Of a DNA stretch of 64,000 nt, positions 9,497 through 49,146 are shown piece by piece (the first letter of the stretch is position 1; every line of letters starts with the position of its first letter). Source of the DNA: Okeania sp. SIO2B3 (GTDB lineage: Bacteria; Cyanobacteriota; Cyanobacteriia; Cyanobacteriales; Microcoleaceae); assembly GCF_010672525.1 (NCBI RefSeq), contig NZ_JAAHGH010000001.1:197097-261096 (forward strand), in the 5' to 3' direction. The notes beneath the pieces are model-generated. The model made no database searches. It was not told the DNA's origin and saw only the letters and a program-made list of their open reading frames with translations. Made by a program: the position numbers and the translations under genes.

Positions 9497-9530
9497 ACTG
9501 ATAACTGATAACTGATAATTGATAACTGAA
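9497..9530. repeat. TGATAAC heptad repeat abutting a start codon
   Basis: Four to five TGATAAC units preceded by GGAGGTAC and ending CTGAA, directly followed by ATGACT, the start of the glycosyltransferase gene. The gene's leader and start context therefore come from the repeat. Confidence 0.85.
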
Positions 9531-11789
9531 ATGACTACCTCGAATATAACTAAAAAAAAGTTCAAAAGCCGTATAAATACTCTGAATTTTGGTCAACGCA
9601 ATTTAACAAAATTATTGCTGATAGGATTAGTCACACTATTAACAATTATTTTTCTTGCTTGGTTAGCAGAAATAGATCAAATAGACAGATTTTTTGCTCA
9701 AATTCATTACTTTCAAGAAAATCCGCCAATGTGGGTAGAAGCACCAACAAAAAAGAGTCAATATTTACTATTACCGACAATATTACTATTTTTAATAGCT
9801 CAAGGGATTATGAGAATTTCTCCTACTCCCAAAAATTGGTCGCGCATTTTGGTAGTAGGGATTTTATTAGGTTTAACTATTCGTTATTTATCTTGGCGAT
9901 CGCTCTCTACTTTAAACTTAGTCGATCCGGTAAATGGTGTATTTAGTCTAGGTTTATTTGGTCTAGAATTTGTGACAATAAGTAGTAGTATCCTGGGTTT
10001 ATTTTTGATGCTAAGAGTCAAAAATCGTCACAAGGAAGCAGACTATTTTTCTCAGGCAATTTTAGACAAAAGTTTTCAGCCATCAGTGGATATTTTAATT
10101 CCTACTTATGATGAACCAGAGTTTATTTTGGAACGTACTATTATTGGGTGTCAAGCTCTAGATTATGCCAACAAAAAAGTTTATTTACTAGATGATACTA
10201 ATCGACCGGGGGTGAAAAAATTAGCAGCAAAATTAGGTTGTGAATATATCACTAGATTTGATAATACTCATGCTAAGGCTGGAAATCTCAATCATGCCAT
10301 TGCTCAAACAAACAGTGAATTTATTGTTGTTTTTGATGCTGATTTTATTCCTACAAAAAACTTTTTAACTCGGACTTTAGGATTTTTCCAAAATGAACAA
10401 GTTGCTCTAGTACAAACTCCTCAAACATTTTATAATATCGACCCCATTTCTAGAAATTTAGGTTTAGAAAATATCTTAACTCCAGAAGAAGAAATATTTT
10501 ACCGACAAATTCAACCAATAAAAGATGGTGCAGATGGAGTTTTGTGTGCAGGAACTTCTTTTTTAGTTATGCGCAAAGCTTTAGAGTCAGTAGGAGGGTT
10601 TGTGACAGAATCAATTTGTGAAGATTGTTTTACAGGAGTTCTTTTATCATCTAAAGGCTATAGATCGGTTTATTTAGAAGAAAAATTAAGCGCTGGTTTA
10701 GCTGCTGAAAATATTTCCTGTTATGCTACTCAAAGATTAAGATGGGCAAGAGGAACTTTTCAAGGATTTTTTATTAATTCAAATCCTCTTACAATTCCTG
10801 GATTACGTCCTATCCAAAGATTGGCATATTTAGAAACATTTTTACATTGGTTTACTAATGCTAGTCATATCGGTTTTTTGTTCATGCCATTAGCTTATGT
10901 TTTTTTTGATGTGATTCCCATTAAAGCTTCTGCTGCTGAATACTTATATTTTTTTGTGCCTTATTATTTTGTAAATTTAACTGTATTTTCTTGGCTAAAT
11001 TATCATTCCCAGTCATTATTTTTGTCATGTTTTAATCATGTGCTTTTAGCTTTTCCCAAAGCAATAACAATAATTCAAACTTTACTCAATCCATTCTCAA
11101 AAGGATTTAAGGTTACACCAAAAGGAACTAGAAGCGATCGCTACTATTTTAACTGGAAGTTGGCTTTGCCTTTAGTTATATTTTTAGGGCTTAATATCAT
11201 AAGTTTATGCTTGGGTTTATCTCAATATATGAGTCATAGTTGGGAAGTGATGGAAAAAACAAAATATTTTAATTTGGGGTTATTTTGGAGTGGGTATAAT
11301 ATATTGATGACTTGGGTGGCATTATTAGCATTAATTGATGTACCGAAGCAAGACATATATGAATGGTTTAATCTGCGAAGGGTGGTTAAATTAGAAATTA
11401 ATGACCAGATATTATGGGGTATTACTACACAAATATCGGAAGTAGGTGCAAAGATAGAAGTTAATCAGAAAATTCCTTTTAATTTAGTAGGAGAGACTTT
11501 GCCAGTAAAGTTGAAAATTATTGAAGAAAAAATTTGTTTAGCAGGAAAAATTACTAATCTACAGATGAATGGAGAATTTCCTTGTATGGAGGTAATATTT
11601 GAAAAGGTAAATTTATCTGAGAAGCGACAATTAATAGAATTATTATTCTGTCGTCCCGGACAATGGCAACGACGAGAAGCACCAAGTGAATTAAAATCTT
11701 TATGGTTATTATTACAAGTATTGTTAAAACCAAGATTTATTTTTGAAAGAAAACCAAAAGAGAAAGCGATGGAAGTTGGTCAGATTTAA
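9531..11789 (+). CDS. cellulose-synthase-like glycosyltransferase (GT2) with PilZ domain
   Basis: About 752 aa. Membrane spans near the N-terminus are followed by a GT2 catalytic domain with LDDTNRPGVKKLA, the DxD-type FDADF, a TESICEDC segment in place of the TED motif, and QRLRWARGT (the QxxRW signature of processive beta-glycan synthases). More spans follow, then a C-terminal ~110-residue region that fits a PilZ cyclic-di-GMP-binding domain. The family polymerises glucose from UDP-glucose and exports the chain. Cyanobacterial homologues act in cell aggregation, motility or sheath formation. I start at ATG 9531; the upstream TTG at 9519 lies inside the heptad repeat. No bcsB or accessory gene follows, so the exact polymer is uncertain. 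Confidence 0.88.
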   Translation: MTTSNITKKKFKSRINTLNFGQRNLTKLLLIGLVTLLTIIFLAWLAEIDQIDRFFAQIHYFQENPPMWVEAPTKKSQYLLLPTILLFLIAQGIMRISPTPKNWSRILVVGILLGLTIRYLSWRSLSTLNLVDPVNGVFSLGLFGLEFVTISSSILGLFLMLRVKNRHKEADYFSQAILDKSFQPSVDILIPTYDEPEFILERTIIGCQALDYANKKVYLLDDTNRPGVKKLAAKLGCEYITRFDNTHAKAGNLNHAIAQTNSEFIVVFDADFIPTKNFLTRTLGFFQNEQVALVQTPQTFYNIDPISRNLGLENILTPEEEIFYRQIQPIKDGADGVLCAGTSFLVMRKALESVGGFVTESICEDCFTGVLLSSKGYRSVYLEEKLSAGLAAENISCYATQRLRWARGTFQGFFINSNPLTIPGLRPIQRLAYLETFLHWFTNASHIGFLFMPLAYVFFDVIPIKASAAEYLYFFVPYYFVNLTVFSWLNYHSQSLFLSCFNHVLLAFPKAITIIQTLLNPFSKGFKVTPKGTRSDRYYFNWKLALPLVIFLGLNIISLCLGLSQYMSHSWEVMEKTKYFNLGLFWSGYNILMTWVALLALIDVPKQDIYEWFNLRRVVKLEINDQILWGITTQISEVGAKIEVNQKIPFNLVGETLPVKLKIIEEKICLAGKITNLQMNGEFPCMEVIFEKVNLSEKRQLIELLFCRPGQWQRREAPSELKSLWLLLQVLLKPRFIFERKPKEKAMEVGQI

Positions 11790-11795
11790 GTGTGC

Positions 11796-13560
11796 TTAAA
11801 AAAGTTTTAAATTGCCTTCTTCTCCATAAAATTCTACTACTCTAAATTTTCCATCAGCAATTCCCAGTAATAAAACAACTCTAGTTTCAACTAATAAATA
11901 ATCTGCTAGTTTTTCACAACTTATTGGCAGTTGTTTAATATTTGAGAAAAATATCAATTGCACCAGGAGGTCTTCCATAGTCAATATATTCAATAGAATT
12001 TAATTCCTCAAAAATTACATCACATCTCCAACCCAGAAAATTTTACTACTCCAAATTTTCCAGCAGCAATTCCCAGTAATAAAACAACTCCAGTTTCAAC
12101 TAATAAATAATCTGCCAGTTTCTCACAACTTACCCAGAAAATTTGACTATTCAAATAGAATTTCTATAGTTGAGGGGTCGCTTTTTTGACCAGACTAATA
12201 TCTGAGCGAATATTTTCAATGGAATTTATATAAAACAACCTCAAATATCCGTCTCTAAATTTTCCATCAGCAATTCCCAGTAATAAAACAACTCCAGTTT
12301 CAACTAATAAATAATCTGCCAGTTTTTCACAACTTATTGGCAGTTATTTAATATGTAGGAAAAATCATCAAAGCACCAAAGAGTTTTCCACAATTAATAT
12401 CTTCTATATTGACAACTGATAACTGAAATGACTTTCAATCACTTAACTAAATTTTTCAACAGCTATTTTCATCCGACTAATACCTTCTCGAATATTCCCA
12501 ATGGAATTTACATAAAACAACCTCAAATATCCATCTCTAAATTTTCCATCAGCAATTTCCAGTAATTAAACAACTCCAGCTTCAGCTAATAAATAATCAG
12601 TCAGTTTTTCACAACTTATTGGCAGTTATTTAATATGTAGTAAAAATCATCAAAGCACCAAAGAGTTTTCCACAATTAATATCTTCTATATTGACAACTG
12701 ATAACTGATAACTGATAACTGATAACTGAAATGATCTTCAACCACTTAACTAAATTTTTCAACAGCCATTTTTATCCGACTAATACCTTCTCGAATATTC
12801 TCAATGGAATTAGCATAAGACAACCTGAAATATCCATCTCCAAAATTTCCATAAGCAGTTCCCCACAATAAAACAACTCCACCTTCAGCTAATAAATAAT
12901 CTGCCAGTTTTTCACAACTTATCGGTAGTTATTTAATATTTAGGAAAAATCAGCAATTAGTATCTTCTATATTGACAACTGATAACTGATAACTGAAATG
13001 ACCTTCAACCACTTAACTAAATTTTTCAACAGCCATTTTTATCCGACTAATATCTGAAGGAATATTTTCCATGAAATTTATATCAGACAACCTCAAATAT
13101 CCGTCTCTAAATTTTCCATAAGCAGTCCCCGGCAACAAAACAACTCCAGCTTCGATCCATAAATAATTTGCCAGTTTCTGACAATCTATTGGCAGTTATT
13201 TAATATTTGGGAAAAATCATCAGAACACCAAATAATTTTCCACAGTTAATACCTTATATACTTACCTTCAACCACTTAACTAAATTTTTCAACCGCCATT
13301 TTTATTCGACCAATATCTGAGAAAATATTTTCCATGGAATTTACATCAGATAACCTCAAATATCCGTCTCTAAATTTTCCAGAAGTAGCCCAGAAACAAA
13401 ACAACTCCAGATTCAAGTAATAAATAATTTGCCAGTTTATCACAACCTATCAGCAGTTGTTTAATATTTAGGAAAAATCATCAAAGCACCAAAGAGTTTT
13501 CCACAATTAGTATCTTCTATATTGACAACTGATAACTGATAACTGATAACTGAAATGACC
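11796..13560 (-). repeat. tandem decayed copies of the 3' end of the aminotransferase gene
   Basis: About seven imperfect units (near 11809-11990, 12027-12140, 12150-12420, 12431-12727, 12732-13000, 13001-13265 and 13266-13555) each match the final ~200-280 bp of the intact aminotransferase gene at 13570-14736. Shared landmarks are TTTTTCAACAGCCATTTT, ATACCTTCTCGAATATTC, AACTCCAGCTTCAG and CAGTTTTTCACAACTTAT. Most units are separated by ATTGACAACTGATAACTGA followed by AAATGACC. All carry stops and frameshifts. The frame at 11796-11993 is part of one unit and is not a gene. Confidence 0.85.
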
Positions 13561-13569
13561 TTCAACCGC

Positions 13570-14736
13570 TTAACTAAATTTTTCAACCGCCATTTTCATC
13601 CGACTAATACCTTCTCGAATATTCTCAATGGAATTAGCATAAGACAACCTCAAATATCCATCACCAAATTTTCCATAAGCAGTTCCCGGCAACAAAGCAA
13701 CTCCAGCTTCAGATAATAAATAATCAGCCAGTTTTTCACAACTTATCGACAGTTGCTTCACATTGGGGAAAGCATAAAAAGCACCTGCGGGTTTTCCACA
13801 ATTAATTCCTCCAATAGAATTTAAACCTTCGACAATAACATCGCGTCGTTCCTTAAATTCTGCAAACATTTCCTTGACAAACTCCTGAGAATTTTTAATT
13901 GCTTCAATGCCAGCTATTTGAGTAAATGAACAAGCACAGGAATTAGAATTTAACATCAACTGGTCTAACTTTTCAGCTATTGCTTTAGGAGAAACAGAAT
14001 AACCTAGACGCCACCCAGTCATAGCATAAGTTTTTGAATGCCCATCTAATAAAATTGTGCGTTCTTTCATACCAGGAAAACTGATAATACTGGAAAAATT
14101 TGAGTCATAGACTAAATGGGAGTAAATTTCATCAGAAAGGATGTAAAAATTATGTTGAATTGCCAGTTTAGCTATAGCTTCCAAATACTCAGAAGTTAAT
14201 ACACTTCCAGTTGGGTTATGGGGAGAATTGAGAATTAATAATTTTGTCCGTTCAGAAATAGAATTAATCAAATTATCCAGACTAAATTGAAAGTCTAATT
14301 CCTCCAACAAAGGTAATGGAATTGGTTTGCCTCCCACCAAATTAATCACTGATTCATAAACAGGAAATCCAGGGTTAGGATAAATCACTTCATCCCCAGA
14401 ATTTATTAATGCTAAAAGAGTAAAAAATATGACTGGTTTGGCCCCTGGCATTACTACAACTTCATCAGGATTAACTAATATATTGCGAGTTTGAGAAATA
14501 TGTTCTGCTATTACTTCCCTTAACTCCAATAAACCTGCTGCGGGAGTATAAGTTGTATAACCATTATTCATGGCTTGAAAAGCAACTTCGCGAATATTTT
14601 GAGGAGTCTGAAAATCAGGTTGACCAATTTCTAAATGAATAATATTTCGACCTTGAGATTCTAAATATTTTGCCTTAGTAAAAACCTCAATAGCAGCATC
14701 GCCACCTAAACCATTCATTCTAGTTGCAAAGTTCAT
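13570..14736 (-). CDS. class I/II pyridoxal-phosphate aminotransferase
   Basis: 388 aa with the fold-type I motifs: NSPHNPTG (about residues 168-175), SDEIYSHLVYD (about 200-210), and HSKTYAMTGWRLGY (about 233-246), where the Lys binds PLP, followed by the C-terminal GYLRLSYANS with the substrate-carboxylate Arg. Length and motif spacing fit the aspartate / branched aminotransferase group that moves the amino group of Glu or Asp to a 2-oxo acid; the exact substrate is not readable. The ATG gives a start (NFATRMNGLGGDAA) typical of the group. Downstream, its 3' end is repeated about seven times in decayed form, so the locus has undergone repeated partial duplication. Confidence 0.88.
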   Translation of the reverse strand: MNFATRMNGLGGDAAIEVFTKAKYLESQGRNIIHLEIGQPDFQTPQNIREVAFQAMNNGYTTYTPAAGLLELREVIAEHISQTRNILVNPDEVVVMPGAKPVIFFTLLALINSGDEVIYPNPGFPVYESVINLVGGKPIPLPLLEELDFQFSLDNLINSISERTKLLILNSPHNPTGSVLTSEYLEAIAKLAIQHNFYILSDEIYSHLVYDSNFSSIISFPGMKERTILLDGHSKTYAMTGWRLGYSVSPKAIAEKLDQLMLNSNSCACSFTQIAGIEAIKNSQEFVKEMFAEFKERRDVIVEGLNSIGGINCGKPAGAFYAFPNVKQLSISCEKLADYLLSEAGVALLPGTAYGKFGDGYLRLSYANSIENIREGISRMKMAVEKFS

Positions 14737-23196: not shown

Positions 23197-23611
23197 ATCT
23201 ACTTTTGATTTGATATTTAACTATTGACATCATAACAAATCCTAAATTCTAGGAGTCGGTATTTAGGAAGAGAAATAGTTATGTGATTTTATTTAATTTC
23301 TTTGGTGATTTTTGGTTGAGTTGTTGATTTTTCTGGATGGGATAGTAAGTTAAATTTGAACAGGGGTGTCGGGAGTAGAGTTGAACACTGACTCACTACT
23401 CCCTGCTTCTTATGACGGCTGATACATAGAAGTTACTTGACAAAAAAAGTTTTATATGGTATAAATTATATAATGGAAAAGGTGCGCTCATATATACTCG
23501 TTCTAGGCCACTGCAAAATATTGTGTTGAGGATATTTTGGTATCTTTCTTAGTTCCTCTTGAATGAAAAAGGATAGTTTAAGGTTTTTCTGTCTTCTGGT
23601 TCTCAACCTTT
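23197..23611. other. intergenic region
   Basis: No gene. A poorly conserved AT-rich region leading into the 74-bp tandem array. Confidence 0.4.
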
Positions 23612-24525
23612 TCTACTATTGCGTATAGAGAAATAGTGATTTCATTCTCTGAAGCACTCCATTTCAGAGATGAGTTGTGAAATTTCCGACTATTGCGTAT
23701 AGGGAAATAGTAGCTTCAGGGAATAAAAAATTCCCACTCAGGGAGTAGTTGTGAAATTTCTGACTATTGCGGATATAGAAATAGTAATTTCATTTTATGA
23801 AGCACTCCATTTCAGAGGTGAGTTGTGAAATTTCCGACTATTGCGTATAGGGAAATAGTAGTTTCATTCTCTGAAGCACTCAATCTCAGAGGTGAGTTGT
23901 GAATTTTTGACTGTTGCCTATGGGGAAGTAGTAATTTCATTCTCTGAAGCACTCAGTCTCAGAGGTAAGTTGTAAATTTCTGACTATTGCCTATGGGGAA
24001 GTAGAAGCTTCAGGAAATGAAAAATTCCGACTCAGAGAGTAGTTGTGAAATTTCTGACTATTGCGTATAGAGAAATAGTAGTTTCATTCTCTGAAGCACT
24101 CAATCTCAGAAGTGAGTTGTGAATTTTTGACTGTTGCCTATGGGGAAGTAGTAATTTCATTCTCTGAAGCACTCAGTCTCAGAGGTAAGTTGTAAATTTC
24201 TGACTATTGTCTATAGGGAAGTAGAAGCTTCAGGAAATGAAAAATTCCGACTCAGAGAGTAGTTGTAAATTTCTGACTATTGCGGGTAGAGAAATAGTAA
24301 CTTCATTTTATAGAGAACTCCGACTGTGAGATGAGTTGTGAAATTTCTGACTATTGCGTATAGGGAAATAGTAATTTCATTCCCTTAAGCACTCAGGAGA
24401 TGAGTTGCGAAATTTCTGACTATTGTCTATAGGGAAATAGTAATTTCATTTTGTTGAGCACTCCGGAGGTGCGTGGTAAATTTTTGACTATTGCGTATAG
24501 AGAAATAGTAATTTCATTTTCTCAA
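23612..24525. repeat. 13-unit tandem array, unit about 74 bp
   Basis: Units begin near 23613, 23689, 23762, 23838, 23911, 23985, 24058, 24130, 24204, 24277, 24351, 24419 and 24486. Each starts GACTATTGCGTATAGGGAAA followed by TAGT, which contains the short inverted repeat CTATT...AATAG, and continues with either a TTCATTCTCTGAAGCACTC type or a CTTCAGGAAATGAAAAATTCC type of second half. The two types recur in order, so a ~220-bp higher-order unit (23900-24050 versus 24120-24270) has itself been duplicated. There is no open frame. It lies just downstream of murJ. Confidence 0.92.
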
Positions 24526-24656
24526 GGAAAGGTTTCTGTCAGAAAGACTTAGTTAAAAATACCTTTAACTTTTAACTTTTGACTTATGGGTAATAGTTGA
24601 ACTGACGATCGCTTTATTAGTCGAGAAAAAAAGATAAAAGCTAGGAGGATATCAAG

Positions 24657-47993: not shown

Positions 47994-49146
47994 GGCTTTG
48001 TTGCATGAAAGTATATAACTACCGCACTTGCTCTGCATATGTACTTAATAACGCGCGGAAACTGCTGTAACTATTGTCCAATAGTTAAATCGAAAATATC
48101 AGTTTGACATAAAAGGTTGAAACTTTTACCTGTAAAAGCTTTGAGGTTTAATCAGTAGTTCGATAACTATTGGACAATAGATAAATCGAACATCAATAAT
48201 CGTGAAACAGTGCGATTAAGCTGCCGCCACCATCCTCCGCCAACGCTTTCTCAGCAGAGCAATAACTATTGTCCAATAGTTAAATCGAAAATATCAGTTT
48301 GACATAAAAGGTTGAAACTATTATCTGTAAAAGCTTTGAGGTTTAATCAGTAGTTCGATAACTATTGGACAATAGATAAATCGAACATCAATAATCGTGA
48401 AACAGTGCGATTAAGCTGCCGCCACCATCCTCCGCCAACGCTTTCTCAGCAGAGCAATAACTATTGGACAATAGATAAATCGAAAATATCAGTTTGACAT
48501 AAAAGGTTGAAACTATTATCTGTAAAAGCTTTGAAGTTTAATCAGTAGTTCGATAACTATTGGACAATAGATAAATCGAACATCAATAATCGTGAAACAG
48601 TGCGATTAAGCTGCCGCCACCATCCTCCGCCAACGCTTTCTCAGCAGAGCAATAACTATTGGACAATAGATAAATCGAAAATATCAGTTTGACATAAAAG
48701 GTTGAAACTATTATCTGTAAAAGCTTTGAGGTTTAATCAGTAGAACGATAACTATTGGACAATAGATAAATCGAACATCAATAATCGTGAAACAGTGCGA
48801 TTAAGCTGCCGCCACCATCCTCCGCCAACGCTTTCTCAGCAGAGCAATAACTATTGGACAATAGATAAATCGAAAATATCAGTTTGACATAAAAGGTTGA
48901 AACTATTATCTGTAAAAGCTTTGAGGTTTAATCAGTAGAACGATAATAACTATTGGACAATAGATAAATAGAACATCAATAATCGTGAAACAGTGCGATT
49001 AAGCTGCCGCCACCATCCTCCGCCAACGCTTTCTCAGCAGAGCAATAACTATTGGACAATAGATAAATCGAACATCAATAATCGCGAAACAGAACGATAT
49101 AGCTGCGGAATGGATGTTAAGAACACTACTTTCATGCAACAAAGCC
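47994..49146. mobile_element. transposon-like element with IS903-like ends enclosing a tandem array
   Basis: The left end GGCTTTGTTGCATGAAAG (47994-48011) and the right end CTTTCATGCAACAAAGCC (49129-49146) are a perfect 18-bp inverted repeat. I know IS903 of the IS5 family to begin GGCTTTGTTGAATAAATC, so these termini are of that type. The 1.1 kb between them contains no transposase frame, only a 195-bp direct-repeat array. I see no clear target duplication (TTTTAATTC left, ATGTAAAGT right), so insertion may be old or followed by rearrangement. Confidence 0.75.
48068..49080. repeat. tandem array with a 195-bp unit (five full copies)
   Basis: Units begin at about 48068, 48262, 48456, 48651, 48846 and a partial at 49044, with a spacing near 195 bp. 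Each unit carries ACTATTGGACAATAG twice (or ACTATTGTCCAATAGTT in the first two), the palindrome CTATTG-NN-CAATAG, plus AAGCTGCCGCCACCATCC and CTTTCTCAGCAGAGC. Divergence is low, so expansion looks recent. There is no open reading frame. Confidence 0.95.

Follow-up and report, generated by a model that had tools for sequence, protein, structure and literature searches.

The window analysed here is the whole stretch of 64,000 nucleotides, which comes from a genome of 10 Mb in 249 contigs (hereafter G000) with 14 matches to phycobilisome families, which mark it as cyanobacterial. Within it, an intact gene for a class I/II aminotransferase of 388 amino acids lies on the minus strand at 13570..14736 (Pfam PF00155, E 2.3e-71), and a cellulose-synthase-like glycosyltransferase with a PilZ domain is encoded on the plus strand at 9519..11789 (Pfam PF13641, PF03552 and PF07238). 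The two genes are convergent, and the gap between them, whose far border is the glycosyltransferase gene, is the site of a repeat array. The initial annotation had described this array as seven decayed tandem copies of an aminotransferase gene's 3' end, and a search by nhmmer with a profile built from 12 orthologous aminotransferase gene ends bears this out: seven units follow each other directly head to tail from 11840 to 13519, with E-values from 1.4e-19 to 1.5e-54, and they match the end of the gene at 13570-14736. The units are 86-240 bp long and all come from the last 280 bp of the gene, and tandem repeats finder (TRF) reports an array of 282-bp period at 12193-13754.

All seven units lie on the minus strand and are numbered outwards from the gene. 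U1 (13283..13519, nhmmer E 2.5e-45), the nearest to the gene, has one in-frame stop and U2 (13020..13259, E 2.9e-48) has three; U3 (12753..12947, E 1.5e-54) is the most gene-like unit at 90%, U4 (12450..12687, E 1.1e-51) is a mosaic, and U5 (12166..12406, E 6.7e-52) is almost wholly unit-like and carries another, older-type ending. Beyond them lie the short fragment U6 (12049..12134, E 1.4e-19) and the outermost unit U7 (11840..12027, E 9.6e-36). U1 to U5 extend to the stop region, while U6 and U7 stop about 90 bp short of it, at profile position 191 of 280. Taken as wholes, the units do not show the claimed steady loss of similarity to the gene with distance: on 84 shared columns the identities from U1 to U7 are 0.81, 0.81, 0.89, 0.85, 0.85, 0.83 and 0.82 (Spearman 0.29, p 0.53), and over the full overlaps the correlation of identity with distance is -0.29 (p 0.53). 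An order is seen in the last 24 bases alone, which in U1 are those of the present gene, in U2 and U3 are one base off it, in U4 are two bases off the gene of the window and identical to the gene of the relative G004, and in U5 form another ending that resembles the neighbouring genus. This order fits growth of the array next to the gene, on a handful of sites.

Regarding the situation in relatives, compared as one genome per species, the same locus carries from 0 to 16 copies of the gene end with varied unit extents, as had been suggested as a check on the array. Behind the gene or its orthologue there are seven copies in G000, seven in G001 and six in G004, where the array has a 337-bp period. 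G016 has 16 copies, of which 15 do not exceed about 55 bp; G025 has six, its contig ending inside the array; G021 has one; and G034 has one together with further shorter repeats found by blastn. G002 also has one copy, in a contig that ends 98 bp past the stop. By the profile search no copy was found in the gap of G028 and G031, nor in the 32 bp from the stop to the contig end in G010, nor in G011, where the glycosyltransferase gene was not found within the 14 kb fetched. Relative to the stop, the units reach approximately from -56 to +116 in G016 (172-bp period), from about -172 to +104 in G025 and from -39 to +82 in G034. The gap itself measures 114 bp in G031 and 368 bp in G028; that of G001, at 3.7 kb, additionally holds other, unrelated-looking sequence. 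The motif GCGATCGC, which we take to be HIP1, was seen near the stop in relatives and counted.

Orthologues of the aminotransferase, with 89-99% amino acid identity, are present in 11 of the 58 other genomes searched, and one further genome of the 58 has a partial relative at 69%; in the same search G003, a member of the genus of the window, gave no close orthologue, its best match being at 35%. The glycosyltransferase gene adjoins the orthologue in G004, G001, G021, G016, G028 and G031. The aminotransferase is thus patchily present in relatives, and its best matches, at 64-65% identity, are in Candidatus Poribacteria, in a contig database possibly without near records; horizontal transfer would fit both observations. 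G002 is filed under the genus of the window, yet its gene end is 95% like that of G034, from another genus, and 85% like that of the window. The last residues of the aminotransferase differ from genus to genus, and the last 88 columns of the gene are only moderately less conserved than those before them, with 0.884 and 0.823 in two windows of alignment vs 0.877-0.978 in the six preceding ones.

The history of the units was then read from a tree. The profile search gave 45 units in total, of which 27 were long enough for alignment and 22 entered the tree together with the 12 gene ends, five units of fewer than 110 columns being left out. The units of G000, G001 and G004, U3 excepted, form one clade apart from the genes (support 99/100), in which U7 groups with its orthologues G001_U4 and G004_U5 (100/96) and U1 is the sister of G001_U1 (92/90). 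Four units of G004 are recent, near-identical copies (99/98). A single clade of the G000 units is rejected (p-AU 2e-12). U3 falls among the genes, next to those of G000, G004 and G001 (82/73), though the data do not reject a tree that puts it with the remaining units (p-AU 0.33). With units orthologous across species, the array for the most part predates the split of G000, G001 and G004 and has been re-amplified since; most of it was hence not newly spun off from the gene of the window within its own lineage. A single origin of all units in both genera was also considered and is weakly rejected (p-AU 0.037, or 0.049 without U3), which suggests at least two origins at the locus, or else exchange with the gene that blurs the tree.

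The units have lost the mark of a coding sequence. Between the genes of the two groups the differences by codon position are 0.074/0.038/0.271, whereas among the units they are 0.171/0.152/0.176, and from this near-evenness we conclude that the units are without coding constraint of their own. In-frame stops occur in five of the seven units of the window, and gaps or insertions of 1-2 nt likewise in five of seven. The orthologous set U7, G001_U4 and G004_U5 gives 0.114/0.075/0.178, with about 120 cells each, and between a unit and its own gene the values are 0.181/0.182/0.249. Both sets lean to the third position, which is not a clean neutral pattern; for units against their gene such a lean would follow where the gene's own divergence contributes to the differences.

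Exchange between units and gene was assessed in seven units by a maximum chi-square permutation test on 29 sites at which genes and units can be told apart, with p-values given uncorrected, the tail being counted either as one site or with all its sites. U4 is unit-like on its left and gene-like on its right, with the break between positions -67 and -55 from the stop of the gene, and its p-value is 2e-4 when the tail is one site and 5e-5 when all sites count; it alone is a firm mosaic that would survive correction for seven tests. For the gene-like tract of G001_U1 the two values are 0.008 and 0.11, and for U3, which is suggestive as a mosaic, they are 0.09 and 0.04. U1 (0.69 and 6e-4) and U2 (0.85 and 0.005) become significant solely through their gene-like tails, and neither U5 (0.33 and 0.29) nor G004_U3 (0.19 and 0.14) is significant in either way of counting. 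A mosaic that is a unit on the left and the gene on the right is the look of the expanding product when a unit and the gene end exchange unequally, though the mosaic of U4 could also have come about through gene conversion rather than crossing-over.

Taken as a whole, we consider tandem duplication, unequal exchange and neutral decay the explanation of the array, at a probability of roughly 0.78. Tandem duplication with unequal crossing-over is a general process in bacteria. At this locus, a tandem duplication running from a breakpoint within the aminotransferase gene to a second one in its 3' flank would leave the gene intact and put a promoterless copy of its 3' end behind it. Because the gene end and the copies would remain homologous, unequal crossing-over or replication slippage could continue, and exchange among the units and with the gene end would add, remove and recombine units in each lineage, while the copies would decay without coding constraint in a convergent gap that would tolerate the growth of the array. 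This explanation builds on the observed homology and orientation, the differences in copy number and extent, the orthologous units, the lost coding constraint and the one clear mosaic; we infer the route of recombination, be it RecA-dependent crossing-over, slippage or gene conversion, as well as neutrality. A purely random process does not explain why so many lineages are hit in this gap. With the known cases of tandem duplication with unequal crossing-over and of long-unit intergenic repeats the array shares the head-to-tail copies, the species-specific number and the mosaic unit; it differs in having a unit that takes in part of an intact gene, namely its end, and in the persistence of orthologous decayed units across species.

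An alternative cause of the duplications was seen in the heptad repeats at the edges of the units, TGATAAC in tandem being the TAACTGA repeat in another phase. The spacers of the window hold direct tandem repeats of TAACTGA in three tracts of two or more: at 13523..13553 between the gene and U1 (found by TRF), at 12973..12993 between U2 and U3, and at 12692..12729 between U3 and U4 (again by TRF); a single heptad of the same module lies at 12410..12425 between U4 and U5. The initial annotation had placed the module after each unit, but it is present in these four of eight intervals, and no heptad was found in the window array between U1 and U2, U5 and U6, or U6 and U7, or from U7 to the end. 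The view that these heptads, by slippage or recombination, were the driver of the duplications gains from their presence in half of the intervals and from the frequency of tandem heptad tracts in the genus of the window, which in the genome samples is 48.8 and 61.2 per Mb (G000 and G003) vs 12.5 and 0 in G015 and G019. In addition, TAACTGA heptad repeats have been reported in a range of cyanobacteria (PMC4679880), and this 2015 source announces a consideration of their roles in genome rearrangement. Elsewhere in the window's genome the heptad part of the query is matched at 45 or more sites, a minimum obtained with 40 of 529 candidates scored. The module is the same as the one in the four intervals, but here it is part of some spacers and not the repeat unit, and it is absent or single in most sister arrays.

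The sister arrays speak against a role of the heptads. No heptad occurs in the examined stretches of the same locus in G004, G021, G025 and G034, the stretches of G004 and G025 each including a 100-base N run; G016 has three single heptads and no tandem pair, and G001 has one tandem pair, adjoining the gene. In a second gene-end array elsewhere in the genome, described below, the heptad is matched six times, each time singly and never as a tandem pair. Since sister arrays do without heptads or tandem pairs, heptads are not needed for such arrays. Moreover, the intervals past U5, which hold old units shared across species, have no heptads, and the heptad-less spacer between U1 and U2 is of a type that is found in G004 too. 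Because a heptad spacer is common to G000 and G001 and a heptad-less one to G000 and G004, both types are probably old within the genus. Of the proposal that heptads promoted repeated unequal duplication, the unequal duplication is supported, by the mosaic unit and the differences in copy number and extent, while the causal part of the heptads, weakened by the heptad-less sister arrays, is quite improbable.

Another possibility is that the units persist as a conserved non-coding RNA, a terminator or a regulatory element of the convergent gene pair. Such a role would agree with the persistence of certain units across species; promoter-like matches number 16, where shuffles give 9.8 +- 3.8, and are for the most part one or two sites recurring in several units, and the unit consensus folds at -4.6 vs -0.1 +- 0.3 kcal/mol in column shuffles. 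As a fold energy this is nevertheless tiny, the opposite strand yields 0.0, and over the same columns the 12 gene ends fold at -29.1, a comparison that favours the genes as they are more alike. The z-score of -18 obtained for the column-shuffled unit consensus was set aside, as it refers to -4.6 kcal/mol, dinucleotides were not kept and the gene ends fold better. For the array, Rfam and the consensus folds yielded neither a match to a curated family of structured RNA nor a well-supported conserved fold; terminator-like sites number one vs 0.7 expected, and G028 and G031 have the two genes without any array. We hold a function of this kind to be quite improbable.

Partial promoterless copies adjoining one intact gene also call to mind a store of silent cassettes, from which variants would be fed into the gene end by gene conversion; pilE/pilS is a silent-cassette system with the same likenesses to, and differences from, the array as vlsE/vls. 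The tandem promoterless partial copies by an intact gene and the exchange with that gene, here seen in the mosaic, are likenesses to vlsE/vls (PMC2632889, PMC11499132), and the last residues of the gene vary between genera as the cassette reading would have it. The copies of the window are, however, broken and unconstrained, the enzyme gene is conserved, and there is no sign of selected variation, in contrast with vlsE/vls. The recipient gene end shows strong codon-position constraint (the 0.074/0.038/0.271 above) and not hypervariability or diversifying selection, with its last 88 columns just moderately less conserved, and the product is an aminotransferase. Nor do the copies keep an open frame in register, and given their stops and indels conversion would mostly break the enzyme, so that we regard such a store as highly improbable. 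An assembly artefact or a collapsed repeat, brought to mind by related contigs that end or have N runs here (G002, G010, G004 and G025), can scarcely be credited, for the units of the window differ by 6-27% from each other in a gap without N and other genomes carry arrays with orthologous units.

To place this locus in the context of the genome, gene ends were surveyed for non-coding copies lying no more than 3 kb away, in two genomes of the genus of the window (G000 and G003) and two of other genera (G015 and G019), with a simple longest-ORF caller and with neighbouring genes counted as independent. Local non-coding copies were found for 14 of 385 3' ends in G000 (860 kb) and 12 of 195 in G003 (392 kb); the figures for G015 and G019 are 3 of 259 and 1 of 207, so that the pooled comparison is 26/580 vs 4/466 (Fisher p 3e-4). 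For 5' ends the pooled counts are 16/555 vs 1/448 (Fisher p 8e-4), and for mid-gene pieces 1/234 vs 1/192. Three or more hits are seen for six 3' ends vs none, and arrays number five vs none; among the loci counted, L208 is a tangled repeat region whose three-copy row represents three hits on one place, and one copy at L196 counts for two genes. Tandem repeats of period 60 or more take up 5.9 and 4.6% of non-coding bases in G000 and G003 vs 1.7 and 0.6% in the other pair, and in the surveyed sample of the window's genome 60% of the bases lie in long ORFs. The excess of gene-end copies in this genus speaks for the duplication account but is suggestive only, with two genomes per side and more non-coding DNA in the first pair.

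A second large array lies behind the gene of a TPR-sulfotransferase at L160 6961-9240, the last ~205 bp of which are matched 12 times there, one match being cut by an N run; gene and array together occupy L160 6961-11766 (G000:C184 from 186961). Matches to its unit occur in 9 of 35 genomes including the window's own, in differing numbers, with many in G003 and G002. Other repeats were also seen, namely tandem arrays in the window at 48068-49072 (195-bp units, 5.1 copies, 98% matches) and at 23610-24526 (73-bp units, 12.6 copies), and at L149 11222-16233 the first ~72 bp of a gene in four copies upstream of it. Arrays of gene ends were not found described in the titles and abstract openings of the open-licence literature, which is no proof of absence.

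For Trichodesmium, 40% non-coding DNA is stated in the abstract of PMC4649490. The likeness to the present case, going by the available parts of PMC4649490 and PMC3141437, is low coding density, and many pseudogenes are reported in Trichodesmium; it is pseudogenes and introns that are named in those parts, not tandem copies of gene ends. One may tentatively go further and suppose that throughout the genomes of this genus and its neighbour gene ends are constantly being re-duplicated in tandem, making intergenic DNA, that growth close to the gene layers older states of the last codons, and that low coding density comes partly from the genomes' own gene ends; we consider this possible, with the odds against it. 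The array by itself most likely does nothing. It is a clear case of an already known kind of process, with a genome-wide context, and it looks less like a working device than like one of the routes by which non-coding DNA builds up. Here such DNA can be followed back to the end of the neighbouring gene, with orthologous decayed copies across species, and the TPR-sulfotransferase locus looks alike. Traceable gene-end arrays would thereby offer a testable source for cyanobacterial non-coding DNA as well as a relative order of the duplications.
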